This document shows positions 1,665 through 17,193 of a DNA stretch of 55,894 nucleotides, one piece after another. The DNA is from Acidobacteriota bacterium (GTDB taxonomy: Bacteria; Acidobacteriota; Thermoanaerobaculia; Multivoradales; JAHEKO01): contig JADFQD010000007.1 in the NCBI GenBank assembly GCA_022561975.1, forward strand, positions 1 to 55,894, written 5' to 3'. How positions within the stretch are numbered: the first letter of the stretch is position 1; every line of letters starts with the position of its first letter. Below the pieces are notes generated by a model that was not told where the DNA came from, did no database searches, and worked only from the letters and a program-made list of their open reading frames with translations. The translations under genes and the position numbers were made by a program.

Positions 1665-2862
1665 TGCGAGGCTCTTCGCCGCCGACGGATACTTCTACAA
1701 CGGCCGGAACCACGACTCCCTCGCGCATGTCGATGCGATCCGCGGCGAGCTTCCCTCACTGGAGCGGGTCGTCATCGTCCCGTACACGCGCGGGGCGAAT
1801 GCGGGGGCTCTCCGCGCTGCCGTGACCTGGGATGAAGCGCTCGGGGAGGCGACGGTGGATCCGATCCGGTTTCGGCAGCTTCCCTTCGATCACCCGCTCT
1901 ACATCCTCTACTCCTCGGGCACCACGGGTGCACCCAAATGCATCGTTCACGGCGCCGGAGGCACCCTGATCCAGCACCTCAAAGAACACCGACTGCATAC
2001 GGACGTGAAGCCCGGCGACCGGGTCTTCTACTTCACTACCTGCGGTTGGATGATGTGGAACTGGTTGGTGTCAGGCCTGGCCTCCGAGGCGACCTTGATG
2101 CTGTACGACGGATCGCCATTCCATCCCGACGCGAATGCGCTGTTCGACTTCGCCGAGAAGGAGCGCATCACCGTATTCGGAACCTCCGCGAAATTCATCG
2201 ACGCCGTCTCCAAGGCGGGCCTCCAGCCCGCGGATTCCCACGACCTGTCGAGCCTACGAACGATTCTCTCGACGGGATCCCCCCTGGCACCCGAGAGCTT
2301 CGACTTTGTCTATGCGAAGATCAAGCGGGACGTCTGCCTGTCGTCGATCTCCGGCGGCACCGACATCATCTCGTGCTTCGTCGTCGGAAATCCCATCGGA
2401 CCGGTCTGGTCCGGAGAGATCCAGGCCCGGGGCCTCGGCATGCGGGTCGAGGTGTTCGACGACGGCGGCAGGTCCGTGCGCGGCGTCAAGGGAGAACTCG
2501 TCTGCACCGCTCCCTTTCCGTCCATGCCGATCGGATTCTGGAACGACCCCGACGGTCGGAGGTATCACGCAGCCTACTTCGAGAAATACCCTGGGGTGTG
2601 GTCCCACGGCGATTTCGCCGAGCTGACTTCCCACGAGGGAATGGTCATCCACGGCCGCTCCGACGCCGTCCTGAATCCCGGTGGAATCCGGATCGGTACC
2701 GCTGAAATCTATCGACAGGTGGAGCAGATCGACCAGGTGCTCGAGAGCCTGGCGATCGGCCAGGACTGGCGGGGAGACGTGCGGATCGTGCTCTTCGTGC
2801 GGCTCCGCGATGGAATCCAGCTGGACGACGCACTCCGCAAGGCCATTGCGGATCGGAATCGG
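1665..2862 (+). pseudogene. Acetoacetyl-CoA synthetase, internal fragment
   Basis: About 400 residues of an adenylate-forming acyl-CoA ligase of the acetoacetyl-CoA synthetase type are read in frame 1. Coding identity begins at LFAADGYFYNGR near 1672, well inside the normal protein, so the N-terminal third is missing. The AMP-binding loop [10 protein letters not shown], the segment [10 protein letters not shown], the A5-like ISGGTD and the A8-like [14 protein letters not shown] are all present. The end is also missing: after ALRKAIADR the frame enters antisense of coxL, so the C-terminal catalytic lysine region is lost. There is no start codon with a ribosome site. The internal GTG at 1822 gives only an artificial ORF. 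The fragment cannot encode an active enzyme. Confidence 0.85.
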
Positions 2863-3531
2863 CGCCTGGGTGGTATCCCACATCGTCAACCGCTGTTCTC
2901 GTCCGTCCCAGTCGGCCACCACACCGCGGTTCTCCATCGCTGCCGCGAGGCCGTGGTTATAGGTGAAGCGCCGGGACAGAACCAGGTCGGCTTGCGCTCG
3001 TGCCGTTTCGTAGTCCCCTTTCTCTTGGGCGACCCACGCCGCCTCGTTCGAATCGAGATCGTCGTGCACCAGTGGCGCGCCTTCTTCGAGCGCGGCCTCG
3101 AGATCGACGACCGCGTCGAGCGGCTCATAGCTCACGAAGATCTCGGCAACGGCATCCTCGGCGATGTAGCGACTTTCGGCCACCACCATGACCACCGGCT
3201 CGCCGACGTGGCGGACCTTGTCTTTTGCGAGCGGCACTTGGGTGCGCTGATTGAACCGGATTCCCTCGATCGGCGGCGGCGCCACCAGCAGTGGTCCCGG
3301 CTGCCAGTAGTCTCCCAGATCCTCGGCCGTGTAGACCGCAATCACGCCCTCACGCGCGAGCGCGCTCTCGGTGTCGATGGCTCCGAGTCGAGCATGGGCG
3401 AACGGACTGCGGACAAAGGCCACGTGCACCATGTCCTTGAGCTCGACGTCGTCGACGAAGAGCGCGCGGCCGGTCAGAAGCTGCGGATCTTCGTTGCGCG
3501 TGATCCGTTGGCCGAAGGTTCGGGTCGACAT
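2838..3531 (-). pseudogene. CoxL/xanthine dehydrogenase-type molybdopterin large subunit, N-terminal fragment
   Basis: Only the first roughly 230 residues of the large subunit of an aerobic CO dehydrogenase/xanthine oxidase family enzyme are present. They begin at the family-typical TRTFGQRITRNEDPQLLTG and include FVRSPFAHARL, HVGEPVVMVVAES and the segment WDTTQAPIPIRNGLA. Beyond position 2838 the frame is antisense acetoacetyl-CoA synthetase, so the molybdopterin-binding domains are missing. The start at 3531 lies 17 bases after the stop of the M49-like gene on the same strand. The missing remainder matters because the coxM and coxS genes at 18498-19872 have no large-subunit partner in the window. 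Confidence 0.8.
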
Positions 3532-3548
3532 GAGCTCGAGAACCCCTT

Positions 3549-5255
3549 CTAGCTCGGCGGCGAGAGTTCGTCGGCCTGCGAGTAGATCGGCCGAATGTCC
3601 ACCGGAACACCTTCGAGGCGGGCGACCGCAGTAACCAGCGCCTCGGAAGCCACGCCATAGGTATCGAGAAATTCCTTGGTGCCGTCGTAGTCGCCGTTCG
3701 CCTGCAGCATGAGCATGGTGTTGAGAAGATCCCGGATCCCTCGTGGAAACTTCGCCGACACCGCGCGGAAGCGGCCCTCGTCATCGACCTCGAGCGCTCC
3801 CTTCTCCAGCAGGAAGTTGAACTGAGCGACCACGCCGCGGCCATGAGCCTCGCTGAGTCCGAACCGCGCCGAGCGGAAGAGCCCCGCGACATAGGACGGC
3901 TCGAGCGTGGTTCTGAATTCCGCGGCAATCTCGCCTTTCTCGATCAAGGCCAGGATGTTGTAGATCCCCATGACGTCGGCCTTGGCTTCCTCGAGAGTCG
4001 AATAGAGTTCCTTGAGCTCCAGGCGAACCTCGGTCTCCCGGCCGTTCACGGTGATCCTGCCCGGCCCCAGGCCATGGCTCAGCTCGTGGTGCAGGCTCTC
4101 GGCGAAAAAGGCGTCGAACGAGACCTCGCCGACTTGCTCCGAAGCAATCACCCGCTCGGCGATCGGCACCAGAATCTTCTCGAATTTGGCTCGCAGGACA
4201 TTCCTCAGCATGACCTTCTTCGAACCCTTGGTTTCGCGGACCCTCTCGTCATTGGGCAAATTAAAAGCGAGCGTCTGCACGCCGGCTTTCGAATCCCCAC
4301 CCACGTAAACCTCATCGACGACCCGCATCGGACTCTCGGTGCCGCGCTCGTTCTTGAGCTCGTCCGGAATTGGGAGATTGCTCTCGAGCCAGGGCAGCAA
4401 GCTCTTGAAACGGTCGAGCTTGGCCGATTCCTCGGGCAAATTGACCGTAACGAAAACCTCGAACGCGGCTTTGTATCCGAACAGGCCGTCCTCGTAGGTT
4501 TCATAGGGCCCGATCGTGACTTCGACCGGCGATTCGAGATCCATCCAATGCATGTCGCTTTGGTAGTAGTCATCCGAGAAGAAGGCGTCGGCGCGCGAGT
4601 CGAGGAAGACCCGGAGCGACTCGTTCTCGGTGAGCTCAGCCGCCCGCCGCAGATGATCCGCCGCCCGTTCCAGAGGCTCCTTGAAGGCCTGTGAATAGGG
4701 AACCGCCACCAGCGCGTCGCCGTCGCGACGCACCAGGGTGAAAAGACCGGTCAAAGCCTCACGATCCTCGGGATGCTCTTCGAGCCAGGCCTCGAACTCC
4801 TCCTTGGTCATGTCTTCGGGATAGTAGCCGGCTCCTTCGGGGTGCTCGGCATCACCAATGAAGGGCTCGTTTTCGGCCAGGCGATCCCAGGGGCCGAAGT
4901 TGATGTCGAAGAAAGTACGCAGATCCTCGCTCGCTTCCGCGAGGTCGGCGCGCATGCCCGCGTTGCCGGCCCAGACCTGGGCGAGAAAGATCTCGTCCAT
5001 GATGCGCCCCGCTCGAATGATCTCCTTCAGAGCTTCGATCTCAGCTTCGGGAACGCCGGAAAGATCCGCGGACAGTTCGGTGGGTGCGTATTGCGCCAGG
5101 CGCGTGGAGATGTCGTCGGCAACCGGGAGTCCGCCGACCCTTTCGTGCTGGCTTTCTTCGGCTTGCTGTCCGGACGGCGCGCACGCGGTTGTCTGAACCA
5201 GCAGGGCCAGCAGAGCGATCGGAGCCAGGCCCAGCGATGCCCGTAGATTCTTCAT
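3549..5255 (-). CDS. Dipeptidyl-peptidase III (M49)-like zinc hydrolase, exported
   Basis: This 568-residue protein starts at ATG 5255, chosen because AGGAG lies 9 bases upstream; an ATG two codons earlier is too close to that site. A hydrophobic signal segment (LAPIALLALLVQ) is followed by TTAC, a weak lipobox, so it may be a lipoprotein. The zinc motif HELSH lies at residues 390-394 and the third-ligand helix LEEAKADVMG about 30 residues later, the arrangement seen in bacterial relatives of dipeptidyl peptidase III. The classical family motif is HExxGH; this one has the shorter HExxH spacing. Related proteins are often annotated as M49-like Zn-dependent hydrolases of unknown substrate. It is divergent from a second small metallopeptidase gene at 5377. 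Confidence 0.75.
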   Translation of the reverse strand: MKNLRASLGLAPIALLALLVQTTACAPSGQQAEESQHERVGGLPVADDISTRLAQYAPTELSADLSGVPEAEIEALKEIIRAGRIMDEIFLAQVWAGNAGMRADLAEASEDLRTFFDINFGPWDRLAENEPFIGDAEHPEGAGYYPEDMTKEEFEAWLEEHPEDREALTGLFTLVRRDGDALVAVPYSQAFKEPLERAADHLRRAAELTENESLRVFLDSRADAFFSDDYYQSDMHWMDLESPVEVTIGPYETYEDGLFGYKAAFEVFVTVNLPEESAKLDRFKSLLPWLESNLPIPDELKNERGTESPMRVVDEVYVGGDSKAGVQTLAFNLPNDERVRETKGSKKVMLRNVLRAKFEKILVPIAERVIASEQVGEVSFDAFFAESLHHELSHGLGPGRITVNGRETEVRLELKELYSTLEEAKADVMGIYNILALIEKGEIAAEFRTTLEPSYVAGLFRSARFGLSEAHGRGVVAQFNFLLEKGALEVDDEGRFRAVSAKFPRGIRDLLNTMLMLQANGDYDGTKEFLDTYGVASEALVTAVARLEGVPVDIRPIYSQADELSPPS

Positions 5256-5302
5256 TCTCATGCTCTCCTTTGAACTTCCTACTCTTCCACACTCCTCACA
5301 CG

Positions 5303-5322
5303 AAATGTAGGGGACAGCCGCC
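5303..5322 (+). repeat. GGGGACAG-type repeat, left copy
   Basis: The sequence AAATGTAGGGGACAGCCGCC sits between the divergent M49-like and DUF1025 genes. An imperfect inverted copy occurs at 5828-5850, where the complement reads ATTTGTCAGGGGACGGC. The shared core is TGT, an optional base, then AGGGGACRGC. Such short GGGGAC repeats often form dispersed families in related genomes, but only this pair is seen here, so calling it a REP-type element is a guess. Confidence 0.35.
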
Positions 5323-5376
5323 TCTCTTATCGAGAGACAGGGCGCTCCTTGCCACCTTTGCCGTAGAGTCACCGGC

Positions 5377-5745
5377 GTGCTGCGAATGGGCGTTCGAGAA
5401 TTCGAGAAAACGGTGCGTCAGGCTCTCGAGAGGATCCCCGACGACCTCCAGGCCGCGATCGAAAACGTCGCGGTGACGGTCGAGGACCGGCCCCGCGTCG
5501 AGGACCTGCTCTCGGTGGGGCTGAATCCGAAAACCGACACCCTCCTCGGCCTCTATCAAGGGGTGCCACTGCCCGAGCGCGGCCCCTCGACCTACGGCCT
5601 CGATCTTCCCGACCGCATCGTCGTCTACCGCCGGCCGCTGCTCGAGATCTGCTCCAGCCGCCGCGAGCTTCTCGACGAGATCCGCGACACCGTGATCCAC
5701 GAACTCGGTCACTACTTCGGCCTGCCCGAAGACGAGCTGCCCTAG
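5377..5745 (+). CDS. Minimal zincin metallopeptidase (DUF1025 family)
   Basis: This 122-residue protein is a small zinc metallopeptidase-like protein. The motif IHELGHYFGLPEDEL near its C-terminus supplies the two histidines and the glutamate of HExxH, with a third acidic residue close behind, as is typical of the compact zincins of the DUF1025 family. There is no signal peptide, so it should be cytoplasmic. GTG at 5377 is the first start; ATG at 5386 is equally possible, and no strong ribosome site decides between them. It is transcribed away from the M49-like gene. Family members have no well-established substrate. Confidence 0.8.
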   Translation: MLRMGVREFEKTVRQALERIPDDLQAAIENVAVTVEDRPRVEDLLSVGLNPKTDTLLGLYQGVPLPERGPSTYGLDLPDRIVVYRRPLLEICSSRRELLDEIRDTVIHELGHYFGLPEDELP

Positions 5746-5827
5746 TTGATCAGCAGCCGGTGGTGAAACGTCGAGACCACAGCACGGCACTGGATTAGGG
5801 GCCGGGGACCCGTGCGATCGATTGTCC

Positions 5828-5850
5828 GGCGGAGCCGTCCCCTGACAAAT
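5828..5850 (-). repeat. GGGGAC-type repeat, right inverted copy
   Basis: On the minus strand this reads ATTTGTCAGGGGACGGC followed by TCCGCC, an imperfect inverted match to 5303-5322. Together the two copies bracket the DUF1025 gene. The gap 5746-5979 otherwise shows only the ribosome site of the next gene. Confidence 0.35.
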
Positions 5851-5979
5851 AGACGGAACTATCCCTCCATGTTAAGTTAATGTTTCGTCCGCTAGCTCCA
5901 AACCGGCGCGGCCTCCGCAAGAAGCCACGCGATCAGTCCTCGCCGGTCGTCTACCACAACTCGTCCAAAGGAGATTCTC

Positions 5980-6666
5980 ATGAAACGCAAGAAGCTTGTC
6001 ATTGCCACTCTCGTCCTGCTGGTCGTCGGCCTCGGCGCCCTGCTCGCCGCGCGGGAAGAGGCGGATAACACCTATCGGATCACGGCGACCGCGATCGAAG
6101 CGTGCTCGTGTCCGCTGTTTTGCTCCTGCTACTACAACACCGAACCGAGCGGCGGCCACATGTGCGAGTTCAACATGGCGCAGAAGTTCGCGCCTGGAAG
6201 CCATTGGGGCTCGGTCGACCTCTCCGATGTCGTCGTCTGGATCTCGGGAGACCTCGGCGACCACTTCGGCGACGGAACCACCGAGTGGGCCACGATCACC
6301 TTCGAGACCTCCACCAGCCCCGAGCAACGCGAAGCGATCGGTGGCTGGCTGGGCAAGATGTTCCCGGTTGAGTGGGCCTCGATGGAAACCCGCGAAGACG
6401 AGATCACCTGGGAGGATGGAGACTCCATGGCCAAAGCCACGCTCGGTAGCGGTCTCGCCGACATCCAGCTGACCAAGGTGATCGATGCCGACGGCCAGCA
6501 AGCGGTGGTGAAGAACACCGCCTATTGGGCGGCGAACAGCACCGAGAGTTTCCTTCTCGCGCGCTCGACCCACCATTTCGACGGTGAGGACCATGCATTC
6601 TCGTACGAGGGCCGCAACGGCTTCATGGTGACCACCATGATCGAGGGCAGTCTGGACCAGGAGTAG
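5980..6666 (+). CDS. DUF1326 domain protein with membrane anchor
   Basis: This 228-residue protein begins at ATG 5980, preceded by AAAGGAG at a normal distance. An N-terminal hydrophobic stretch (LVIATLVLLVVGLGALLA) acts as a signal anchor or uncleaved signal. Directly after it comes the cysteine cluster CSCPLFCSC that defines DUF1326, with a further cysteine and histidine in GHMCEF. The rest is a beta-rich domain of about 190 residues. The function of DUF1326 proteins is unknown; the cysteine cluster could bind a metal. It lies upstream of a metal-uptake locus, so a role in metal handling is a reasonable inference but not shown. Confidence 0.75.
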   Translation: MKRKKLVIATLVLLVVGLGALLAAREEADNTYRITATAIEACSCPLFCSCYYNTEPSGGHMCEFNMAQKFAPGSHWGSVDLSDVVVWISGDLGDHFGDGTTEWATITFETSTSPEQREAIGGWLGKMFPVEWASMETREDEITWEDGDSMAKATLGSGLADIQLTKVIDADGQQAVVKNTAYWAANSTESFLLARSTHHFDGEDHAFSYEGRNGFMVTTMIEGSLDQE

Positions 6667-6733
6667 GCCCAGAAGAATTAGGGGGCGAGGCCGCTTGCCC
6701 TCTCGCGACGGACCGGTCTAGGATGCAGGCCAC

Positions 6734-7096
6734 ATGAGGGCTCGCAGGTCATTCTGGAGCGTGCGCCCGATGCACCTCGTCGTACTCGCTGCCTGCACGC
6801 TGGTATTCACAGCACAGAGTGTCAGCGAGTTCGGTCATGCCCTGTCGCACGCGCCGCCCGGCGCTACGATCCACGACGAGGCCACGCACCCCGACGCGGC
6901 CTCCCACCTGGATCAAGAGGAGCACCGGGACCTCGACGAGTGTGTTGCCTGCATCCACACCAGCAAGAGGTTCGCCAGTCTCCAAGGGTCCTCCAGCACC
7001 CTCGCCGGCTCCGACTCGATCGCGCCGGTGGTCGTCCTGGCCGCGGCACATAACGCAGCACGGGTTTCCGGTCCCCCTCGCGCACCGCCCGCCTGA
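6734..7096 (+). CDS. Small exported histidine-rich CxxC protein
   Basis: This 120-residue protein has an N-terminal hydrophobic segment (MHLVVLAACTLVFTAQS), then a histidine-rich region (HALSHAPP, H-D-E-A-T-H, H-L-D-Q-E-E-H) and a CVACIH motif. It resembles the small DUF2946-like proteins found next to metal transporters, whose histidines and CxxC could bind zinc or another divalent metal. The family assignment is loose because identity is confined to composition and motif spacing. The start at 6734 has no strong ribosome site; ATG at 6770 is an alternative and would give a shorter signal segment. It is followed after about 100 bases by the metal-binding lipoprotein-like gene, so co-regulation is likely. 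Confidence 0.55.
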   Translation: MRARRSFWSVRPMHLVVLAACTLVFTAQSVSEFGHALSHAPPGATIHDEATHPDAASHLDQEEHRDLDECVACIHTSKRFASLQGSSSTLAGSDSIAPVVVLAAAHNAARVSGPPRAPPA

Positions 7097-7194
7097 CCTC
7101 CTGAGGTCACAAGAACGAGCCCACGCCTGTTTCGACAGGCGTGATCTTCCGCGCTCCGGCCTCGGCGCGAGGGTGCGCAATCCGGGAGGTCCCC

Positions 7195-8196
7195 ATGTTG
7201 TTACATCGCTTTCCCCAAAACGTCGTTGCTCTTGCATCGATGCTGTTCCTGCAAACGCTCTTCGTCCTTCGCCGCCTCGGCAACCCGACGCTGCTTCTCC
7301 TGCCGGTGCTGGTGCTCGCGGTCGAGCCCCTGCGAGCGGAGCTCAACGTGGTGGCCACGACCACCGATCTCGGATCGATCGCCCGGGAGATCGCCGGAGA
7401 TCTCGCCAAGGTGACGTCGATCGCCAAGGGGTACCAGGATCCTCATTTTATCGACGCCAAACCCTCCTACCTGGTCAGGTTGCAACGAGCCGATCTGTTC
7501 GTCCTGGTCGGGATGGACCTCGAAAGGGGTTGGGCTCCCAACCTGCTGATGAACTCGCGGAACGCCAAGATCCAGAGGGGAGGGGCCGGCTATGTCGACG
7601 CCTCCGAAGGTGTCGACAAGCTCCAGATTCCCGTCGCGGCCGACCGGACCATGGGCGACATCCATCCGTACGGCAACCCCCACTACTGGCTCGACCCTGC
7701 CAACGGGCGGATCATCGCCGCCAACATCGCTGCCGGCCTCATACGGGTGGACCCCGCTCACGCCCAGGAGTACGAGGCCAACTTGAGAGCCTTTCTGGCG
7801 AGGCTCGAGGCCGCCCTCGCGCGTTGGGCGGAAGACGCCGCCGCCCTCGAGGGCCTTGCCGTCGTCGCGTACCACGATTCCTGGCCGTACTTCGAACAGC
7901 GCTTCGGATTCGAGGCCGTGGCCTTCGTCGAACCGAAGCCCGGGATTCCCCCGTCGGGCCGATACATCGCCGCGCTGGTGGAAGAGATGAAGTCGCGGCG
8001 GATAAGCATCATCCTGATGACCTCTTTCTACAGCTCCAAGACGGCACGCCTGATCGCCAGGCAATCCGGTGCCACGCTCGTCACTCTCGGCCAGTCGGTC
8101 GACGGCATCGACGGCGCCGATGACTACTTCTCTCTGTTCGACACCAACCTCTCCCTGTTGCTCCAGGCCGCCCGCGAAGGGCAAGGGGGGCGGTGA
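7195..8196 (+). CDS. ZnuA-like metal ABC transporter solute-binding protein
   Basis: This 333-residue protein of the cluster A-I (ZnuA/TroA) family captures a divalent metal in the periplasm. ATG at 7195 is chosen because GGGAGGT sits 5 bases upstream; the reading frame is open further upstream but without a ribosome site. After a hydrophobic leader the mature part begins near ELNVVATTTDLGSIAREIAG. Family ligand positions are visible as H in DPHFID, H in NPHYWLD, and H in AYHDSWPYF, with the C-terminal acidic residue expected in SVDGIDGADDY. The typical histidine-rich charged loop of zinc-specific ZnuA is absent, so manganese or iron are also possible. Its stop overlaps the start of the permease gene. 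Confidence 0.85.
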   Translation: MLLHRFPQNVVALASMLFLQTLFVLRRLGNPTLLLLPVLVLAVEPLRAELNVVATTTDLGSIAREIAGDLAKVTSIAKGYQDPHFIDAKPSYLVRLQRADLFVLVGMDLERGWAPNLLMNSRNAKIQRGGAGYVDASEGVDKLQIPVAADRTMGDIHPYGNPHYWLDPANGRIIAANIAAGLIRVDPAHAQEYEANLRAFLARLEAALARWAEDAAALEGLAVVAYHDSWPYFEQRFGFEAVAFVEPKPGIPPSGRYIAALVEEMKSRRISIILMTSFYSSKTARLIARQSGATLVTLGQSVDGIDGADDYFSLFDTNLSLLLQAAREGQGGR

Positions 8197-10352
8197 TGTT
8201 CGAATGGTTCGAGTTCCCGTTCATGGTCCAGGCTCTGGTGGCCTGCTCGGTCATGGGCATCGTCCTTGCCTACTTCGGCATCCACGTCATCGGCCGCGGC
8301 ATCGTCTTCGTCGATCTGGCCCTGGGCCAGATCTCATCCATGGGGGTCGCCTACGCTGCCTACTCCGGCCGGGATCCGCTCCTGTGGTCCATGATCTTCA
8401 CCCTGATCGGCGCCGTGCTCTTCTCGGGCCTTCGAGTGCGCGATGTTCGCCTCCGTCTCGAGGCGATCATCGGCATCTTCTACGCGGGCTCGTCCGCGGT
8501 AACGGTGCTCTTGATCGCCAAGACCCCCCACGGCGAGGCGGACATCCAGGATGTGCTGTTCGGAAACGTGCTCGCCATCGACTCCAGCGAGCTTCGGCTG
8601 ATGCTCTTGGTGTTCGGAGTCGTCGCTTTCGTCAACGTGCTTCTCCGCAAGCGCTTCTTTGCGCTCACCTATCGCAAGGGGGCCGGTGAGGAGCTCGCGC
8701 TCCAAGACCACGCCATGAACCTGCTGTTCTACCTGCTGCTGGCACTGGCCATCGTCTTCGCCATCCGAGCCGGCGGCGTGATTCCCGTCTTTGCCTATCT
8801 CATCATTCCCCCGGTTGCCGCGGTTTTCCTCGCCCGGGGCACCGGAGCCGTCGTGGCGCTGACGCTCGGCGTCGCCGTCGTCAGCAGCTTTGTCGGGCTC
8901 CATCTCTCCTTCGCCTACGACCTCCCGGCCGGGCCATCCATCGTCGGCGTGCTCGCTCTGGTCGCCGTGCTAGCCGTCGCCGTCGGGAAGCTCCTGCGCC
9001 TCATCGGGCGCCATCGTAGACGCAAGGCAACGGCCCTGGTACTCCTTGGGCTCCTGGCTCTCGCACCATCTCGCGCCGCCGCGGCTCGGGACGGAGTCCC
9101 GAGGCCGAGTGACGAGCTGGCCGAGTTGAGGGCGATCGTGCTTCAGGCCAGCGAACGGATCGAGGCCCTCGAGGCGGAACTCGAAGAGCTGGCGAAGAGC
9201 CAGGGCGAACCGGCGCCGCCGGCGCCGGCCGCCACCGGCCTCAGGCTGATCGACATCTCCCTCGGAGGACTCTTCTCCGCCGGCGCCTCATCGGCGCGGG
9301 AATCCGAGCTGCGCATACTCGAGTTCGGCGCCCACGACCCCAAAAACCGGGGATTCACGGTACAAAACCTAGAACTCGCAATGTCTGGAGCCGTGGACCC
9401 CTACTTGCGAGGAGATGCCTTCCTCATCTTTCAGATCGACGAGGAAGGCGAGAGCTTCGTCGAGCTGGAGGAGGCGTTCTTCACCACGCTTTCACTGCCC
9501 GCCGGCCTCCAGGTGAAGGCTGGCACTTTCTTTTCCCCGTTCGGTCGCCTCAATCCGCAACATCCCCACAGCTGGGACTTCATCGATCAGCCGGTGGTGA
9601 ACTCGCGGCTGCTCGGGCCGGACGGGCTGCGCGGCCCGGGGATGCAGCTGAACTGGCTCCTGCCCACCCCCTTCTTTGCGGAGTTCACTCTGGACGTTCA
9701 GAACTCCCAAGGGGAGACCGCCTTCTCGTTTCGGTCGGAGCCCGGCGAGGAGTTCGCGGGTCGAGAACTCCTGGAGCGCGATGTGCGGACGGCTCGAGAC
9801 CTTCTGTTCCTCGGCCGGCTGTCGAGCTCGTTCGACCTCACCGATTCCTTCACAGTCCTCACGGGCCTGTCGCACGTGACCGGCCCCAACGCGACCGGCC
9901 CCGATGCCCGCACGGACATCACCGGCATTGACTTCTATGGCAAGTGGAAGCCGCTGAGAAATCAGAGGGGATGGCCCTTCTTTGCCGTCCAGGCGGAGGC
10001 GATGATGCGCGACTACCAGGCGGCCGCCCAGGTAACCGAAGACGGGACCCTGCTCCCCGCGGAGGTACTGCGGGACTGGGGCACCTACCTGCAGGGAACC
10101 TGGGGCTTCAAGCCTCGCTGGGTCGCCGGTTTGCGCGTCGATTGGGCCGACGGCAACGGCGACAACAAAACCGACCCCTTGCGTGACCGCCGGCTGCGGA
10201 TCTCTCCCAACGCCAGCTTCTACCCGACCGAATTCTCGAAGTTCCGGTTGCAGTACAACTGGGACCGGGCCGACCATCTCGAGCGCGATCAATCGAGCCT
10301 GTTCTTGCAATTCGAGTTTCGGTACGGCGCGCACGGTGGGCACAAGTTTTAG
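8196..10352 (+). CDS. Metal ABC permease (ZnuB type) fused to an outer-membrane beta-barrel
   Basis: One open frame of 718 codons joins two proteins normally encoded apart. Residues 1 to about 270 are an ABC-3 family permease: multiple membrane helices, DLALGQISSMGVAYA near the start, and RAGGVIPVFAYLIIPPVAAVFLA. Residues about 275-298 (arginine-rich, then a hydrophobic stretch ending in SRAAAARDG) look like an embedded signal peptide. A short coiled coil follows (about 305-335), then a 370-residue porin-like barrel with GAHDPKNRGFTVQNLELAMSG and alternating strand pattern, ending in an aromatic-poor RYGAHGGHKF. ATG at 8196 overlaps the solute-binding stop; GTG at 8193 is an alternative. An internal GTG near 8966 could start the barrel separately. 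No ABC ATPase gene is adjacent. Confidence 0.75.
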   Translation: MFEWFEFPFMVQALVACSVMGIVLAYFGIHVIGRGIVFVDLALGQISSMGVAYAAYSGRDPLLWSMIFTLIGAVLFSGLRVRDVRLRLEAIIGIFYAGSSAVTVLLIAKTPHGEADIQDVLFGNVLAIDSSELRLMLLVFGVVAFVNVLLRKRFFALTYRKGAGEELALQDHAMNLLFYLLLALAIVFAIRAGGVIPVFAYLIIPPVAAVFLARGTGAVVALTLGVAVVSSFVGLHLSFAYDLPAGPSIVGVLALVAVLAVAVGKLLRLIGRHRRRKATALVLLGLLALAPSRAAAARDGVPRPSDELAELRAIVLQASERIEALEAELEELAKSQGEPAPPAPAATGLRLIDISLGGLFSAGASSARESELRILEFGAHDPKNRGFTVQNLELAMSGAVDPYLRGDAFLIFQIDEEGESFVELEEAFFTTLSLPAGLQVKAGTFFSPFGRLNPQHPHSWDFIDQPVVNSRLLGPDGLRGPGMQLNWLLPTPFFAEFTLDVQNSQGETAFSFRSEPGEEFAGRELLERDVRTARDLLFLGRLSSSFDLTDSFTVLTGLSHVTGPNATGPDARTDITGIDFYGKWKPLRNQRGWPFFAVQAEAMMRDYQAAAQVTEDGTLLPAEVLRDWGTYLQGTWGFKPRWVAGLRVDWADGNGDNKTDPLRDRRLRISPNASFYPTEFSKFRLQYNWDRADHLERDQSSLFLQFEFRYGAHGGHKF

Positions 10353-10359
10353 CGGCGGT

Positions 10360-12138
10360 TCAAAAGGGCCACAGGATCGGGATGAGGATCGTCGACAGGA
10401 TCCAGAAGATCAGGTTGAGCGGGGCGCCGTAGCGGAGGTAGTCGATGAACTTGTAGTTACCGGGTCCGAACACCATGGCGTTGGTCTGATACGACATCGG
10501 GGTCATGAAGCTCGCCGAAGCGGCGTAGGTGACGGCCATCAAGAGCGGCTTGGGATCGACTCCGAGCTTGGCGGCGGTGGTGAAAGCGATCGGGACCATG
10601 AGGACGGCGGTGGCGTTGTTCGAGAACGTCGAGGTCAGCAGTGACGTCGCGAGGTAGATCACCGACAGCAGCGCCGTCGGTCCGAAGGAAATTCCGATCT
10701 GGCTGATGAACGAGCCGATCGACTCCGCGAGACCGGTGTTTTCCATCGCACGCCCCAGGGGAAGGATGGCCGCGAGCAGGACGATGACCGTCCAGTCGAT
10801 CGCCCGGTAGGCCTGCTGCGTCGTGACGCGACGGGTCACGAGCAGGACAACGACGCCCAGGATCGCGGCCTTCAGGATCGGCATCCACCCCAGGGTGGCC
10901 AACAGCACGACGATCGGGATGAGCGCACCGCTGATCCACCAGCGACTCGTCAACCGCAGCTTGACTTCACTCTCACCCAGGCGCACGAAGTCGTCCATCC
11001 CGTAGAGCGCCTCGATGCGGGACCGCGGTCCGAAGACGAGCAGCGTGTCCCACGCTTTGAGCGGAATCAGCGCGAGCTTGTCTCGGATCATCTGGCCGGT
11101 GCTGTTGATGCCGAGGACGAACGAGCCGAAGCGTTTCCGGAAGTTGATGTCCTTGATCGTCGATCCGAGGAGCCGCGAGAGCGACGTGATTTGGACCTCG
11201 GCCAGAATCGTGCCATGGTCGGAGAGATCGGCGTCGGTGAGCTTGATGTCTGTCAGGAGGAGCAGACCGTAGCGCTCCCGGAAGGCGACGATGTCTTCGA
11301 CGCTGCCGCGCACGAGCAGAACGTCGCCCGCCAGCAGCGCCGTGTTCCTGAGGTCGGAGGTGATCTTCTGCTTGCCGCGGATAATCTCCAGAACATTCAG
11401 GTGAAAGCGTTCGCTGACGTGCTCACCGAGGACCGTCTTGTTGATCAGCTTGGAGTTGGCGGGAATGCGCACCTCGGTCAGGAAGCCGGTGAGGTGATAC
11501 TTCCGCGTCAGGCTCGAGATGATGCTGCGCGAAGGCAGATACCGACGGAGAAAGAACACGTAATACGCAAGGCCGACGAGGAACAGAATGCTCCCCAGCG
11601 TCAGGAACTCGAAAACCGTGAACTCCGCCTCGCCGTGCTCGGCGGAGAGGGAGCTCACCAGCAGATTCGTCGACGTGCCGAGCAGGGTGCAGGTGCCACC
11701 GATGATCGCCATGTACGAGAGTGGCAGCAGAATCTTCGATGGGCTGAAGTCGAAGTGGCGCGCCAGCTTGATGGCGACCGGCATGAGAACCCCGACCGCC
11801 GCCGTATTGTTGATGAAAGCGGACGAGACACCGGCAACGACGAGCAGCAGAAGCACCGCCACGCGGTGATCGCCGTCACCGAACCGGGCGATACGGTTGC
11901 CGAACTTAGCGATCAGGCCGCTCTGGACGAGACCCTCGCTGAGCACGAACATCATCATCACCGTGATGACGGCCGTGTTGCCGAAGCCGGAAATCGCCTC
12001 CTCCGGGGTCACGAGATCGAACACCAGGAGGAGCCCGAGGCAGGTCATGGCGACGATGTCCATCGACATCCACTCGCGGGTGAACGCGAGGATCGTGAAG
12101 GCGATGATCCCCAGAAGGATGACCATGTCGAGATTCAT
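10360..12138 (-). CDS. SLC13/DASS family anion transporter with TrkA-C (RCK_C) domains
   Basis: This 592-residue inner-membrane protein belongs to the divalent anion:sodium symporter group with a central regulatory insert. ATG at 12138 is chosen because AGGAAG lies 9 bases upstream. Membrane segments fill both ends (VILLGIIAFTILAF, and near the end PTALLSVIYLATSLLT). The two SNNxTA-like hairpin motifs are visible as FINNTAAVGVLMP and TFSNNATAVLMVP. The centre (about 200-400) carries two RCK_C-like repeats such as AEVQITSLSRLLGSTI. Family members carry sulfate, phosphate or dicarboxylates; the substrate here cannot be read. It converges with the permease-barrel gene, only 7 bases apart, with no visible terminator between them. 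Confidence 0.85.
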   Translation of the reverse strand: MNLDMVILLGIIAFTILAFTREWMSMDIVAMTCLGLLLVFDLVTPEEAISGFGNTAVITVMMMFVLSEGLVQSGLIAKFGNRIARFGDGDHRVAVLLLLVVAGVSSAFINNTAAVGVLMPVAIKLARHFDFSPSKILLPLSYMAIIGGTCTLLGTSTNLLVSSLSAEHGEAEFTVFEFLTLGSILFLVGLAYYVFFLRRYLPSRSIISSLTRKYHLTGFLTEVRIPANSKLINKTVLGEHVSERFHLNVLEIIRGKQKITSDLRNTALLAGDVLLVRGSVEDIVAFRERYGLLLLTDIKLTDADLSDHGTILAEVQITSLSRLLGSTIKDINFRKRFGSFVLGINSTGQMIRDKLALIPLKAWDTLLVFGPRSRIEALYGMDDFVRLGESEVKLRLTSRWWISGALIPIVVLLATLGWMPILKAAILGVVVLLVTRRVTTQQAYRAIDWTVIVLLAAILPLGRAMENTGLAESIGSFISQIGISFGPTALLSVIYLATSLLTSTFSNNATAVLMVPIAFTTAAKLGVDPKPLLMAVTYAASASFMTPMSYQTNAMVFGPGNYKFIDYLRYGAPLNLIFWILSTILIPILWPF

Positions 12139-12262
12139 TTCGAGACACTTCCTGGCTCGCCCAGAGACCACGCATTCCACCGAGCGACGCGGTCTCGCTA
12201 GTGCTAGGGTACACCGGGGAGGTTCTCCAAACTACCGGCGCCAGCCCAGGACGGTCGAGACG

Positions 12263-12340
12263 GGTCGACCGCTACAACACGCCCAAGAACAATCACGGCG
12301 GCGCTCAACCGCCACAACACGTCCTACGTAGCGGTCGACC
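12263..12340. repeat. Inverted repeat with 13-bp perfect arms
   Basis: GGTCGACCGCTAC at 12263-12275 is exactly complementary to GTAGCGGTCGACC at 12328-12340, and pairing extends imperfectly outward (GAGACGG against the CCGTGTC side). The loop of 52 bases contains two CAACACG copies. It lies between the SLC13 gene start and the end of the cyclase gene. It has no T-run, so it is not a standard terminator. A structured RNA or a dispersed repeat is possible. Confidence 0.5.
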
Positions 12341-12397
12341 TCCGTGTCAACCGGGTGTTCTGGCCCATGGCCGTGTCGCCCAGGCGAACTCGTCCGC

Positions 12398-14098
12398 TTA
12401 CGCCTTCTCCCGAAAGGCCACGAATCGGCCCCAGCACGAGGCCAGTTCCATGCCGCGCTGAATGAACGCCGCGATGTAGTAGCGGCCGGTCTCGGCTTCG
12501 GCAATCGCGCCGCCGAGGTTCTCGGCATGGACAATGCCCTTGGGAAAGAGGTTCAAGTGCATGTCCTGGTAGTACTTGTCCTGCGGGTAGACCTCGTCCC
12601 AGTCCTTGCCGTACTGCTCCTCGAGCTTGGCGTTGGCGACCGCGAACTGCCCGGGATGGAAGATCCGCTGGATAGTGTTCATCGGGTGCTCCATCGCCAC
12701 GCAGTCGATCCCCAGCCATTTGATCTTGCGCTCGATGCACCAGTCCGCGAACTCGGGCGAGGGACCCGGGTGCTGGATCATGTAGCGGAACTCGTCGGAG
12801 TCCGGACTGTTCCAGCCGTACTTGTACCAGCCCGCCTTGATCAGAAGGATGTCGCCGTCGTGAAGATCGACCTTCTCTTCGATCATCGTCGGGGTATAGA
12901 CGCTCGAGTCGCTGACGTCGTCCGAGATGTCGACTATTACGCCGGGACCGTGCCAGTAATCGAGCGGCACCTCGCCGATGGTTTTACCCGCGGCCCAGAA
13001 GTGCTTCTCGCCGTCCATGTGGGTTGCGAGATGGAAGCTCGCCCGGCAGTGCGCGTTGTTGCGGCCCAGGCCTAGATCCTGGCCGCCCACCCGTTTGGTG
13101 TATTTGATCGAAAGCGGTTCGTAGTTCGCCCACTGCGGCGTCTGGACGCTGAACGGCAGCGTCATATCAAGCATCTCGATCTCGTGCATGGCGGCAAAGA
13201 ACTCATCTTCGTCGGCGGTATCAGAGCCAGCGGCGCCAGCGCCGGGGCCGCTTCGAGCCAGGGCGACCACCCGACTCCAGGAAGATTCCACTTCCATGAA
13301 CGGCAGCGGTGGAACAAAGAACCAGGCGCGCCGATTCAAGAGCTGATCGATTTCGCCGCCGAGGGCCTCGAGCAGCAACAGTCCCGACTTCGGCATCGTC
13401 CGATGGGTCAAGCCGTAGTACTCGGCGCTGGGAAACAACTCGTCCCAGCTCTTGCCGGTGGTTTCCAGGGCGGCCGCCTCGGCCTTCTCGAATTCAGCCG
13501 GGTGAAGCCGCCGGACAGCGGTGTTCATCGGGTGCTCGGCGGAGCCGCAGTCGACACCCACGACCTTGAGCTTCATGTCGAGCGCCCAGGGAAAGAAGTC
13601 GGGCGACGGTCCGGGGTGGCGCACGTAGTAGCCGAACTCTTTGTTCTCGATGCCGCCTTGCGCTTCGGGGTCGGCAATGTCCGGCTGGTCGTACGCGTAG
13701 CGGTGGTAGCCGGTATGGACGACGAGGATGTCGCCCTCTTTCACCGAGACCCGTTCGGTGATCATCTCGGGGGTGTAGAACCCGTAGTCCGAAACCGCAT
13801 CCGAGACGTCCGCGACCACGCCTTCGCCGCAGAGGTCGGTCAATGGGATATCGGCGAGGGCCCTGGCGCCCGAATGAAAGGCTCGCGGGCCGACCAGGTG
13901 CGTGCCGGTGTTGTTGCTCCACTCGATGAGCTGTCCGTTGGCGCCCTGACCGCCACCCCACGAGCCGGTCAAGCGTTTGAAGAAGTGCACCTGCAGCGGC
14001 ATCTCGCCCGGGGACGGCGGGGTGAAAATGGAAAGCGGCTGGGTCAGGTCGTACCAACGGGCAGCGGCCAGGGTGGCGATCGCTTGTTCGCGGTTCAT
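12398..14098 (-). CDS. Double-domain cyclase (KynB/isatin-hydrolase family), one half degenerate
   Basis: This 566-residue protein contains two tandem copies of the cyclase fold used by bacterial kynurenine formamidase and isatin hydrolase, which open amide or lactam bonds with a bound divalent metal. Domain 2 (about 300-566) keeps the metal motif HxxTHxDxxxH at H356, H360, D362 and H366. In domain 1 (1 to about 285) the same positions are N63, H67, V69 and A73, so three of four ligands are lost. Both halves keep the later GxDCxxxEHPMNT element. ATG at 14098 is the natural start. It is the last gene of the operon, 28 bases after allG, and most likely hydrolyses a pathway intermediate. Confidence 0.8.
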   Translation of the reverse strand: MNREQAIATLAAARWYDLTQPLSIFTPPSPGEMPLQVHFFKRLTGSWGGGQGANGQLIEWSNNTGTHLVGPRAFHSGARALADIPLTDLCGEGVVADVSDAVSDYGFYTPEMITERVSVKEGDILVVHTGYHRYAYDQPDIADPEAQGGIENKEFGYYVRHPGPSPDFFPWALDMKLKVVGVDCGSAEHPMNTAVRRLHPAEFEKAEAAALETTGKSWDELFPSAEYYGLTHRTMPKSGLLLLEALGGEIDQLLNRRAWFFVPPLPFMEVESSWSRVVALARSGPGAGAAGSDTADEDEFFAAMHEIEMLDMTLPFSVQTPQWANYEPLSIKYTKRVGGQDLGLGRNNAHCRASFHLATHMDGEKHFWAAGKTIGEVPLDYWHGPGVIVDISDDVSDSSVYTPTMIEEKVDLHDGDILLIKAGWYKYGWNSPDSDEFRYMIQHPGPSPEFADWCIERKIKWLGIDCVAMEHPMNTIQRIFHPGQFAVANAKLEEQYGKDWDEVYPQDKYYQDMHLNLFPKGIVHAENLGGAIAEAETGRYYIAAFIQRGMELASCWGRFVAFREKA

Positions 14099-14126
14099 CG
14101 GCACAATCTCCTCGAGAAACAGGTCT

Positions 14127-15395
14127 TCATCCGAGGTCGTAGCGCTCGGCGTAGGCCAGAAGCGCTTGTTCGAAAATCTCGATGGGGGGCCGGACCAAAC
14201 CCGCGCCGACCTGACCGACGCCGGCCTCGCGGTGGGCGATGCCGGTGTTGACCCGCGGCGTGATGCCGAGCTCGACCACCCGGCGAATATCGATACCGGT
14301 GGGCGAACCCCGAAAATCGAGCGGTGGAATCGTGAAGTGCGAGTGCTCGCCGAAGGTGATCTCGTACATCTCGAGAGTGGCATCCAGCGCATCCTGAGGC
14401 TTGCCCGAGACAAACTGGACGATCGCCGGCGCCGCGGCCATGGCGAAAGCACCGATGCCCGCGGTCTCGGTGATGGTCGAGTCGCCGATATCCGGATTGG
14501 CGTCGGCGGCTGAGAAGCCCGAAAAATAGAGACCTTCCGGTATCCCCGCCGGGGCCGTGAACCAGTCCGTACCGAGGCCCGAGACCCGGATTCCGAAGTC
14601 GGTGCCGTTCCTGGCCATGGCCGTGACGAGGGTCGAGCCCTCGACACCGTGGCCGGCGTCGGCCATCGCTTTGCACGCCGCCATGACCGGGTTTAGAACC
14701 GAGAGCGCGTTGTCGCCGAGAAACTCGACTACCTTGCGCCGAGTGGCGGCGTCGGCAGAGCTTTCCGCGATGTAGGGTGCGAGCAGCTTGGCGAAAAGAA
14801 GAGACCCCGCCTTGTTGCGATTATGCCCTTCGTCGCCCATATGCAGCGCCTCGGCAAGAAGTGCCCGGATATCGAGCCCGCCCGCCGCTTCGATCGCCAC
14901 CTTGACGATCGGTCCCATCTCGTCGTTCATCCAGCGCAGCTTGTCAAGAACCTCCGGCGCGTAGGCTCCGTAGCGGAGCACCTTGCCGTAGCCCTCGTTG
15001 AGGTTCGAAAACGCCAGATTCCCGTGGGTTTGGTTCTCGATCACATAGACCGCCATCGAGGGTGAAGTCACGCCGGCCATGGGTCCGACGGCTCCGTGGT
15101 GATGGCAGGGCTCGAAATCGATCGCGCCCGAAGACGCGAGTTCCTCGGCAGCCTCGGCGTCGGTGGCCCAGCCTTCGAAGAGAGTGGCGCCGATCACCGC
15201 GCCGCGCAGCGGTCCCGACATGCGATCCCACTCGATCGGCGGTCCGGCGTGAAGAAGCCGGCGCTCCCGAAGTGCCGGAATCACTTCGGAAGCCTGGGCT
15301 ATGGTCTTCAAAATCGGCCTGGCGCCGATCATGCGCTCGATTGTTTGCTGGTTGGCTTGATTGGCGTTCACTCGAACATGCTCCCTCTGGCTCAC
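14127..15395 (-). CDS. allG: AllG/YlbE-like protein (DUF1116), oxamate carbamoyltransferase-type subunit
   Basis: This 422-residue protein is a DUF1116 member. In E. coli the homologous gene (ylbE, allG) acts with fdrA (allF) and ylbF (allH) as the oxamate carbamoyltransferase of anaerobic allantoin degradation; that is family knowledge. Recognisable segments are ARPILKTIAQASEVIPAL, FEPCHHHGAVGPMAGVTSPS, GDEGHNRNKAGS and TAMARNGTDFGIRVSGLG. It follows allF by 9 bases on the same strand. No allH-type (DUF2877) gene and no carbamate kinase is in the window, so the substrate and even the exact reaction may differ from E. coli. Confidence 0.8.
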   Translation of the reverse strand: MSQREHVRVNANQANQQTIERMIGARPILKTIAQASEVIPALRERRLLHAGPPIEWDRMSGPLRGAVIGATLFEGWATDAEAAEELASSGAIDFEPCHHHGAVGPMAGVTSPSMAVYVIENQTHGNLAFSNLNEGYGKVLRYGAYAPEVLDKLRWMNDEMGPIVKVAIEAAGGLDIRALLAEALHMGDEGHNRNKAGSLLFAKLLAPYIAESSADAATRRKVVEFLGDNALSVLNPVMAACKAMADAGHGVEGSTLVTAMARNGTDFGIRVSGLGTDWFTAPAGIPEGLYFSGFSAADANPDIGDSTITETAGIGAFAMAAAPAIVQFVSGKPQDALDATLEMYEITFGEHSHFTIPPLDFRGSPTGIDIRRVVELGITPRVNTGIAHREAGVGQVGAGLVRPPIEIFEQALLAYAERYDLG

Positions 15396-15404
15396 GAAAC
15401 CACG

Positions 15405-17183
15405 CTAGCCCATTTTGGCCAGGATCGCCTGAAGTCTCTCGTTGCCACCTGCCGGCGGTCGCCATTCGACATGAACAACCCCGACCTCCTGGGCGGCGAG
15501 GCTGTCATGGAAATGCTCGAGGCCGACGTTGATGCATGAGATCGAATCGAAGTCTTCGAGCTCGAGGCGAGAGGGCAAAGGCGAAACAGCTCCTACGAAA
15601 CGATCCGCCACGAATTCGACCAGTCCCCCGATGGTACGAAACACCGCGGCGCCGGCCTGTTGCAACTGTTCGACTTGGCCATCGAGGTTTTGCGGATCTT
15701 TGTCGGTGCCGATCACGACGACGGCAACCTCGACTCCGGAGCGTTCGCAGGAGCCGGCGTCCGAGCGGGCGCCCGAACCGGCGCCCGGACCTTCCACTGC
15801 CGCGCGAATCACCTGCGCAAGCTCGCCGGCGGGATTCGGGTGCGCTCCGTCCCCGAGCACCAGATCGAGCAGAATCACCCGGGTGCTCGGGTCGGATGCC
15901 TCTTGGGAGATGCGGCGCTGTCTCAGGTCTGAATCGATCATCGGGTGCGGTCGCCCGACGGTGAATTCGTCGGCCCCCAGGTCCAGGATCGTATGGCCGA
16001 TGCTGGCCTCGATCGACGCGTCGGCGACTCCATCGACTCCGAGATTCGAAGCCAAGGGCGCGACCAGGAACCTCAGGGCCTGGGTTACCTCGAGAGCCAC
16101 TGTGCCACCCGAGAACAGCCCGCGCACGAAACCGGTATTGGAAGCCCTGGGGGAAGCCTTGGGGGAGTCCTTGGGGGCGTCCCCTGGCTGGGCGGGTGAG
16201 ACATGGGAGGCCGTGGGCTGGAGCCCCAGCAACTCGACAGCCCGATCGGCGGCGCCCTCGAGGCTCTGAGCAAACCAGAGGTTCGAGAGCTTCTCGAGCG
16301 GTGGCGCCGTGCCGCTCAAAGAGACCACCACCGGCTTGCGCGTTGCGCGTGCCGCGGCCAATACTCCGGCCGCGACTTCCGGCGCCGGTGGTTTCGAGAT
16401 CAACACGATGACACGGGTCGCGGGGTCGTATGCCAGCAGGTCGAGCGCCTGCAACGTCGTCGCGCCCGCGACCGCCTGGGACAGATCCCTGCCGCCGGTA
16501 CCGATGGCTTGCGAGATCCCGGCTCCGAGGGCGTCGATGCGGCTCGCCACCGACTGCAGGCCGGTTCCGGACGCCGCGACGATTCCAATCGCACCCGGTT
16601 GGACTCGATTCGCAAAGCCCAACCCCACGCCTCCTATGGTCGCGGTGCCACAGTCCGGCCCCATGACCAGAAGACCGCGCTCTCGAGCTTCGCGTTTGAG
16701 CTCGACCTCTTGGTCAATCGTGACGTTGTCGCTGTAGAGAAACACGTGGCGATCCGCTCGAATCGCCTCGCGGGCTACTTGCGCTGCGTATCGTCCCGGC
16801 ACCGACACCAGCACCCACCGCGCCTGCGGTGAACCGTCGAGCGCGGTGCGCAGGCTCTTGGGCCGGAACGCGGCGGTGCCTGAACCAGAGAAGCCAAGGG
16901 AACCGGCGTCCCGAGACATCAGGCGATCGATCTCAGCCAGGGCCGCCGCCGCGGCGTCATCCGACTCGGCCCGCACCACGATCAAGAGGTCATCGGGCCC
17001 GACCCCTGAAAGCGCTTCCGGAAGCAGACGGCTCGCCGCCAACAGTTCGAGGTTGACCTCGGTGGCCATCACCACGCCGGCGTCGTCGACGCCCTCGAGC
17101 TGGGCCAGGGAGCTCTGGAGTTGCATCAATACAATCGAGTCGGCGTAGGCGCCTCGGCGGATCTCGTGCGCGATGGTCGACAC
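15405..17183 (-). CDS. fdrA: AllF/FdrA-like carbamoyltransferase subunit with CoA-binding fold
   Basis: This 592-residue FdrA family protein resembles succinyl-CoA synthetase alpha subunits: a Rossmann-like region with SDNVTIDQEVELKREARERGL, MGPDCGTATIGGVGLGFAN and the ASGTGLQSVASRI loop, then a second GTGGRDLSQAV segment. The C-terminal tail INVGLEHFHDSL and VVHVEWRPPAGG is also family typical. Two low-complexity linkers rich in Pro, Ser, Lys and in Gly, Ala, Ser interrupt the middle; the first is encoded by a 12-base tandem repeat. With AllG it would transfer or release a carbamoyl group. The start at 17183 lies 10 bases after the amidase stop. Confidence 0.85.
   Translation of the reverse strand: MSTIAHEIRRGAYADSIVLMQLQSSLAQLEGVDDAGVVMATEVNLELLAASRLLPEALSGVGPDDLLIVVRAESDDAAAAALAEIDRLMSRDAGSLGFSGSGTAAFRPKSLRTALDGSPQARWVLVSVPGRYAAQVAREAIRADRHVFLYSDNVTIDQEVELKREARERGLLVMGPDCGTATIGGVGLGFANRVQPGAIGIVAASGTGLQSVASRIDALGAGISQAIGTGGRDLSQAVAGATTLQALDLLAYDPATRVIVLISKPPAPEVAAGVLAAARATRKPVVVSLSGTAPPLEKLSNLWFAQSLEGAADRAVELLGLQPTASHVSPAQPGDAPKDSPKASPRASNTGFVRGLFSGGTVALEVTQALRFLVAPLASNLGVDGVADASIEASIGHTILDLGADEFTVGRPHPMIDSDLRQRRISQEASDPSTRVILLDLVLGDGAHPNPAGELAQVIRAAVEGPGAGSGARSDAGSCERSGVEVAVVVIGTDKDPQNLDGQVEQLQQAGAAVFRTIGGLVEFVADRFVGAVSPLPSRLELEDFDSISCINVGLEHFHDSLAAQEVGVVHVEWRPPAGGNERLQAILAKMG
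16144..16191 (+). repeat. 12-bp imperfect tandem repeat inside fdrA
   Basis: Four units following the pattern GCCTTGGGGGAG run in tandem (GCCCTGGGGGAA, GCCTTGGGGGAG, TCCTTGGGGGCG, then a decayed unit). On the coding strand they give the linker DSPKASPRAS in FdrA. This is probably replication slippage within a tolerant linker. Confidence 0.6.
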
Positions 17184-17193
17184 GGCGCTAGCC

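Follow-up and report, generated by a model that had tools for sequence, protein, structure and literature searches.

A single reading frame joins an ABC-3-type permease to a porin of outer-membrane type

The genomic locus

The window, that is the whole 55.9-kb stretch of DNA analyzed here, contains a gene in which an ABC-3 permease and a porin share one reading frame (Table 1). From N- to C-terminus, its 718-aa product comprises the permease, a signal-peptide-like segment, a predicted coiled coil and a predicted 16-strand barrel. The original prediction, made from the sequence of this DNA, had proposed one continuous frame running from permease to barrel, and this is borne out both by the absence of stops over the full length and by the presence of the same join in a second genome (see below); the two remaining forward frames of the window carry two to three stops at the junction. 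The gene follows that of a ZnuA-like metal-binding protein, and the two overlap as TGATG, the stop codon TGA of the first sharing bases with the start codon ATG of the second. The small His/Cys-rich protein encoded at the start of the unit matches DUF2946 at E 0.21 only, below the cut-off. By eye, small His/Cys ORFs resembling it can be recognized ahead of the binding-protein gene in locus L002 (2602-3060) and ahead of the porin in locus L005 (about 1050-1380).

The unit lies within a 6.7-kb segment that, besides the small gene, the binding protein and the fused gene, contains a DUF1326 gene and a gene for a CitMHS-type transporter. In two genus mates, the matches to window positions 2835-5745 and 12408-18161 that flank this segment lie only 284 bp apart in G002 and about 580 bp apart in G001. 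Both genomes possess elsewhere an unfused set of porin, binding protein and permease, the permease being about 33% identical. Horizontal acquisition of the segment would be the simplest reading, with loss in the genus mates as the alternative.

Table 1. Coordinates of the features at the locus, in positions of the window
Feature	Position	Strand	Remarks
6.7-kb segment bearing the unit	5746..12407		Missing at the same place in G001 and G002
Small exported His/Cys-rich protein, possibly DUF2946-like	6734..7096	+	From the ORF list; first gene of the unit
ZnuA-like periplasmic metal-binding protein	7192..8196	+	PF01297, 199.6 bits (cut-off 29)
Fused permease-porin gene	8196..10352	+	718 codons, single stop-free frame
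Permease half	8196..8990	+	Residues 1-265; PF00950 at 7-263; unfused permeases end here
Cytoplasmic coupling loop	8667..8723	+	Residues 158-176; ABC-3 A...G motif lost
Embedded putative signal peptide	9009..9086	+	Residues 272-297, RHRRRK / ATALVLLGLLALAP / SRAAA-A; from sequence and relatives
Coiled coil, N-terminal in the mature porin	9105..9200	+	Residues 304-335; helix 6-37 of model ma5bcfa573124
16-strand porin barrel	9252..10325	+	Residues 353-710; AlphaFold2 pLDDT 93, pTM 0.84

A second fused copy and the relatives

A scan of one genome per species across 84,980 species (GTDB) gave 274 relatives in all, whose best 80 loci were sorted in six frames. Among these best 80 of 274, the fusion occurs in one record only, G039 (WYBK01000125.1, Acidobacteria bacterium isolate ACD1; loci L002/L032), where a frame without stops encodes permease, signal segment, coil and barrel, with the parts of the junction in the same order; residues 1-512 are 66% identical, and a contig end cuts this copy off inside the barrel. 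Two fused sequences are known, that of the window and that of G039. G055 is left out of this count, since its contig, which carries a porin 72% identical, stops before the junction; at the end of this contig (L003, G055:C214), part of the porin recurs in inverted orientation, which is probably an assembly artefact and obscures the junction.

Otherwise, wherever both are present among the best 80 of 274 relatives, permease and porin are encoded in separate frames, usually with the porin first, upstream of the ZnuA-like gene, and the permease last. The porin gene adjoins the binding-protein and permease genes across several phyla. In Minicystis rosea (L105, 3497-6259), the order is binding protein, permease, porin, and the porin is in frame with the permease but follows a stop and a gap, which represents an unfused counterpart of the order seen in the fused gene.

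The permease-porin fusion is real and not an assembly error, since a second species has the same join. The window contig is itself genuine, as the genes flanking the segment on both sides are 80-95% identical to those of the genus mates G001 and G002, and misbinning was rejected on the same ground. If a frameshift or stop had been missed, or if the assembly were chimeric, two normally separate genes would have been brought together; this would agree with the separate genes of nearly all relatives and with the splitting of both fusion-bearing genomes into many contigs. However, given the same join in the independent assembly of another species, as well as these contig flanks, we regard such an error as exceedingly improbable. 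The original prediction had looked to related genomes for the same junction and would have given way to genes that were always separate: separate genes in nearly all relatives count against it, whereas the same join in G039 speaks in its favour.

Both halves are under selection in one frame, as indicated by the differences between the window and G039 at codon positions 1/2/3, which amount to 0.24/0.17/0.46 in the permease half and 0.20/0.14/0.47 in the barrel half; the lower divergence at position 2 than at position 3 reflects purifying selection in both.

The permease half

The ABC-3 family PF00950 matches this half at 129.9 bits (cut-off 20.1). A model of the permease and junction (AlphaFold2, pLDDT 90) has as its closest solved fold PsaC of the pneumococcal manganese importer (7kyp; Foldseek E 8e-12, TM 0.66-0.71 by query), and the model thus has an ABC-3 fold. 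Its description as a ZnuB-type permease was nevertheless too strong: the ZnuB and AztB equivalogs (NCBIfam) reach 51 and 115 bits, far below their cut-offs of 284 and 280, the permease falls beside a branch devoid of adjacent ATPase genes, and the coupling motif is lost. In the fused pair, the A...G motif that is present in PsaC and ZnuB is replaced at both positions (A164 by G/H and G168 by A/T), and the model shows no helix at residues 159-168. The metal ligands of PsaC, D46 and H50 (PMC11779740), align with L41 and Q45 of the window permease. Nearly all other strongly conserved positions are retained (alignment A4). Porins and permeases were aligned separately (A3 and A4, respectively), replacing a joint alignment of fused and half-length sequences (A2) that misplaced the permeases, with about 20% identity against 25-37% in A4.

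We could not find a conventional ABC ATPase gene anywhere in the 55.9 kb of the window, nor any ZnuC-like ATPase at E 1e-28 in the genome it comes from (G000, 87% complete, which holds other ABC ATPases) or in G001, G002, G005, G008, G011 and G088; this threshold is arbitrary, and the genomes checked hold many other ABC ATPases. At the same threshold, a ZnuC-like ATPase is present in G018, G021 and G025, all of which also possess canonical ABC-3 permeases. C101, the best match of G000 to the AztA profile, was considered as the cognate ATPase and set aside: it adjoins a weak ABC-3 match that we take for FecCD-type, and probably belongs to another importer.

The loci of the relatives are of two kinds, those with an ABC ATPase gene adjacent to the permease and those with none, and each kind forms one side of a well-supported branch of the permease tree (96 and 99). 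The fused permeases make up a pair of their own (SH-aLRT 99) that adjoins the ATPase-less kind. Some of the ATPase-less loci are short, and a distant ATPase gene could be missed there; the longer ones (L056, L068, L073, L097, L124, L125, L127 and L129) contain no ATPase gene. Conservation in the coupling loop is 0.39 vs 0.52 overall in the ATPase-less branch, and 0.42 vs 0.37 overall in the ATPase-adjacent set, so that the ATPase-less branch, otherwise the better conserved of the two, is no longer so in this loop. These data suggest that the permeases of the ATPase-less branch either borrow an unusual ATPase or use none, and the fused permease may likewise be independent of an ATPase.

The ATPase-less branch is marked by the motif FVDLALAQ[IV]AALG and by adjacent porin and binding-protein genes with no adjacent ATPase gene. 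It includes loci L034-L036, L044, L050, L056, L058, L059, L061, L067, L068, L070, L073, L086 and L097 as well as members in genomes G001, G002, G008 and G088, and is distributed over Acidobacteriota, Verrucomicrobiota, Lentisphaerota, Planctomycetota and Nitrospirota. The coupling loop is eroded in several of its members.

The porin half

Modelling with AlphaFold2 of 420 residues, aligned with 62 relatives, gave one long N-terminal helix followed by 16 strands (mean pLDDT 93). A short coiled coil and then a porin-like barrel had been anticipated, and this high-confidence model agrees (coil at about residues 304-335, barrel at about 353-710). The best matches of the barrel model among solved structures (VIA-align) are OprP and OprO (Z 28) and DcaP (Z 24); the superposition on 2o4v (Z 28.3, rmsd 2.8 over 296 residues) points to a 16-strand porin fold. 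Sequence profiles reach less far. Porin_O_P (PF07396) does not match the window protein and matches 2 of 63 relatives, with a best E of 0.005, and a search of PDB sequences with the porin profile returned chance matches only. The profile of the siderophore porin LbtU (NF033652) weakly matches 11 of the 63 members of the porin family (best E 0.00026), and in this the family resembles LbtU, but the window protein itself is unmatched. In the porin tree, the window, G039 and G055 form one group (SH-aLRT 98).

The junction

A signal-peptide-like segment had been placed at about residues 275-298, and its parts can indeed be recognized in the window: a basic n-region (R272-K277), a hydrophobic core (A278-P291) and a c-region (SRAAA). 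Signal peptidase I would likely cut after A296 or A297. This assignment draws on composition, on the AxA rule and on comparison with relatives. At the same place, G039 reads WRKRRSG-AAVLVALALLGAAP-VAAQA; although the two fused proteins are only 47% identical there, both have retained the basic residues, the AxA site and a hydrophobic core of about 14 residues. In the separate porins of the family, an N-terminal signal peptide precedes a linker or coiled coil and aligns with the embedded segment, and the unfused permeases stop at the point where the fused protein turns basic (alignment A4). By this comparison, the fused gene joins a complete permease to a complete porin precursor, since separate porins start with a signal peptide and unfused permeases end at the basic stretch. 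On this evidence, both fused sequences contain an internal, in-frame signal peptide between two mature proteins.

Proposed processing and function

We propose that the product is probably a polyprotein from which signal peptidase generates two proteins, a permease of the inner membrane and a porin of the outer membrane. We infer the topology, cleavage, targeting and metal of the fused product as follows. The ribosome would make an ABC-3-type inner-membrane permease ending in the basic RHRRRK, with a C-terminus that fold and charge predict to be cytoplasmic. The segment that follows would serve as a signal peptide, Sec would thread the remaining chain into the periplasm, and signal peptidase I would cut after the AxA site. 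A cytoplasmic end, a basic stretch, a hydrophobic core and AxA are what Sec and signal peptidase I need. The permease would stay in the inner membrane and the coiled-coil porin, once released, would be folded into the outer membrane via the usual assembly path; pore and permease would be produced in equal amounts. Together with the co-transcribed ZnuA-like protein, they would offer one metal a pore in the outer membrane, a carrier in the periplasm and a channel in the inner membrane; the family of the binding protein suggests that this metal is most likely zinc.

Cleavage by signal peptidase was one of three options in the original prediction, and is the best of them in view of the AxA site kept in both fused proteins and of the signal peptides of the separate porins. 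Another was that the barrel starts internally, at a GTG near 8966. Two in-frame GTGs, at 8949 and 8967, do lie upstream of the signal segment in the window, and the porin could also, or mainly, be translated from such a start inside the last permease helix, giving two proteins from one frame. However, neither GTG is preceded by a Shine-Dalgarno sequence within 20 bases, G039 has no in-frame ATG, GTG or TTG at residues 235-280, and the full-length fusion would still be produced, all of which makes this scenario quite improbable. The last option, an uncleaved chain forming an envelope-spanning permease-porin conduit, with the coiled coil bridging the periplasm, takes the single frame and the position of the coil between the two halves at face value. 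The periplasm is some 20 nm wide, whereas the stretch from signal segment to barrel has about 55 residues, with one 32-residue helix of about 5 nm; moreover, the separate porins have ordinary N-terminal signal peptides and a coil of this kind although no permease is attached to them, and both fused proteins retain a classical AxA site. We therefore hold such a conduit to be very improbable.

It could also be argued that the permease half no longer transports and is now a bulky leader for the porin, as no usual ABC ATPase gene is present in the window, no ZnuC-like ATPase was found in the genome (87% complete), and the coupling motif is lost in both fused proteins. Yet nearly all other strongly conserved positions of the permease are kept and it is under purifying selection, and the missing ATPase gene is no sign of decay, since the ATPase-less branch is widespread and conserved. 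We consider this unlikely. A further step beyond the signal-peptidase-processed polyprotein would be that the fused gene encodes both membrane parts of an ATPase-free, binding-protein-dependent metal uptake system, namely an uncoupled permease of ABC-3 fold and its own porin; this we put forward tentatively, as a rather doubtful possibility.

Comparison with known systems

The nearest known precedent for such a process would be FbcH, the cytochrome b/c1 polyprotein of Bradyrhizobium, in which a multi-span inner-membrane protein and an exported protein are joined through an internal signal peptide that is cut by signal peptidase. The fused protein would share with FbcH this arrangement of an inner-membrane protein, an internal signal peptide and an exported protein. 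It differs in that both FbcH products belong to one inner-membrane complex, whereas the second product here would be an outer-membrane porin, and the two polyproteins have no homology. In the open literature, outside of which most subscription journals lie, we found no description of a permease-porin polyprotein, and nothing on point concerning internal signal peptides in bacteria or porin-linked ZnuA operons.

With ZnuABC, AztABC and PsaABC, the fused system has in common the permease fold (PsaC, 7kyp) and the family of the binding protein, but there is no adjacent ATPase gene, the coupling motif is lost, the ligands D46/H50 correspond to L41/Q45, and a porin is attached. The barrel resembles OprP/OprO and DcaP in its 16 strands and N-terminal extension, and DcaP also has a coiled coil at its N-terminus; however, identity is about 10-14%, and the window porin is genetically linked to a metal-binding protein and a permease. 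Finally, the unfused operons of Acidobacteriota, Verrucomicrobiota, Planctomycetota and Nitrospirota contain the same three protein families, as three genes with the porin first, while in the fused lineage the binding protein comes first and the porin last. Each half therefore belongs to a known kind by its fold, and it is the union of an inner-membrane permease and an outer-membrane porin in one frame that we have not found described.

If the polyprotein reading is correct, this would be a natural bacterial polyprotein whose products reside in two different membranes, and a clean test of whether a cleavable signal peptide placed after the C-terminus of a multi-span protein can still deliver an outer-membrane barrel. 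The association of a specific porin family with a metal-binding protein and a permease may point to a dedicated outer-membrane entry route for the metal. The locus also draws attention to an ABC-3 permease branch whose members apparently dispense with the usual ATPase. Should the ATPase-free reading hold, this branch might represent a widespread and unrecognised class of transporters in Acidobacteriota, Verrucomicrobiota, Planctomycetota and Nitrospirota.

The same porin family also adjoins a ZnuA-like protein in anammox planctomycetes (L037-L049, L051, L064 and L096; many of them Brocadia and Kuenenia), where ATPase and permease genes are present as well in most loci. The anammox porin is thus a candidate metal-specific outer-membrane porin.
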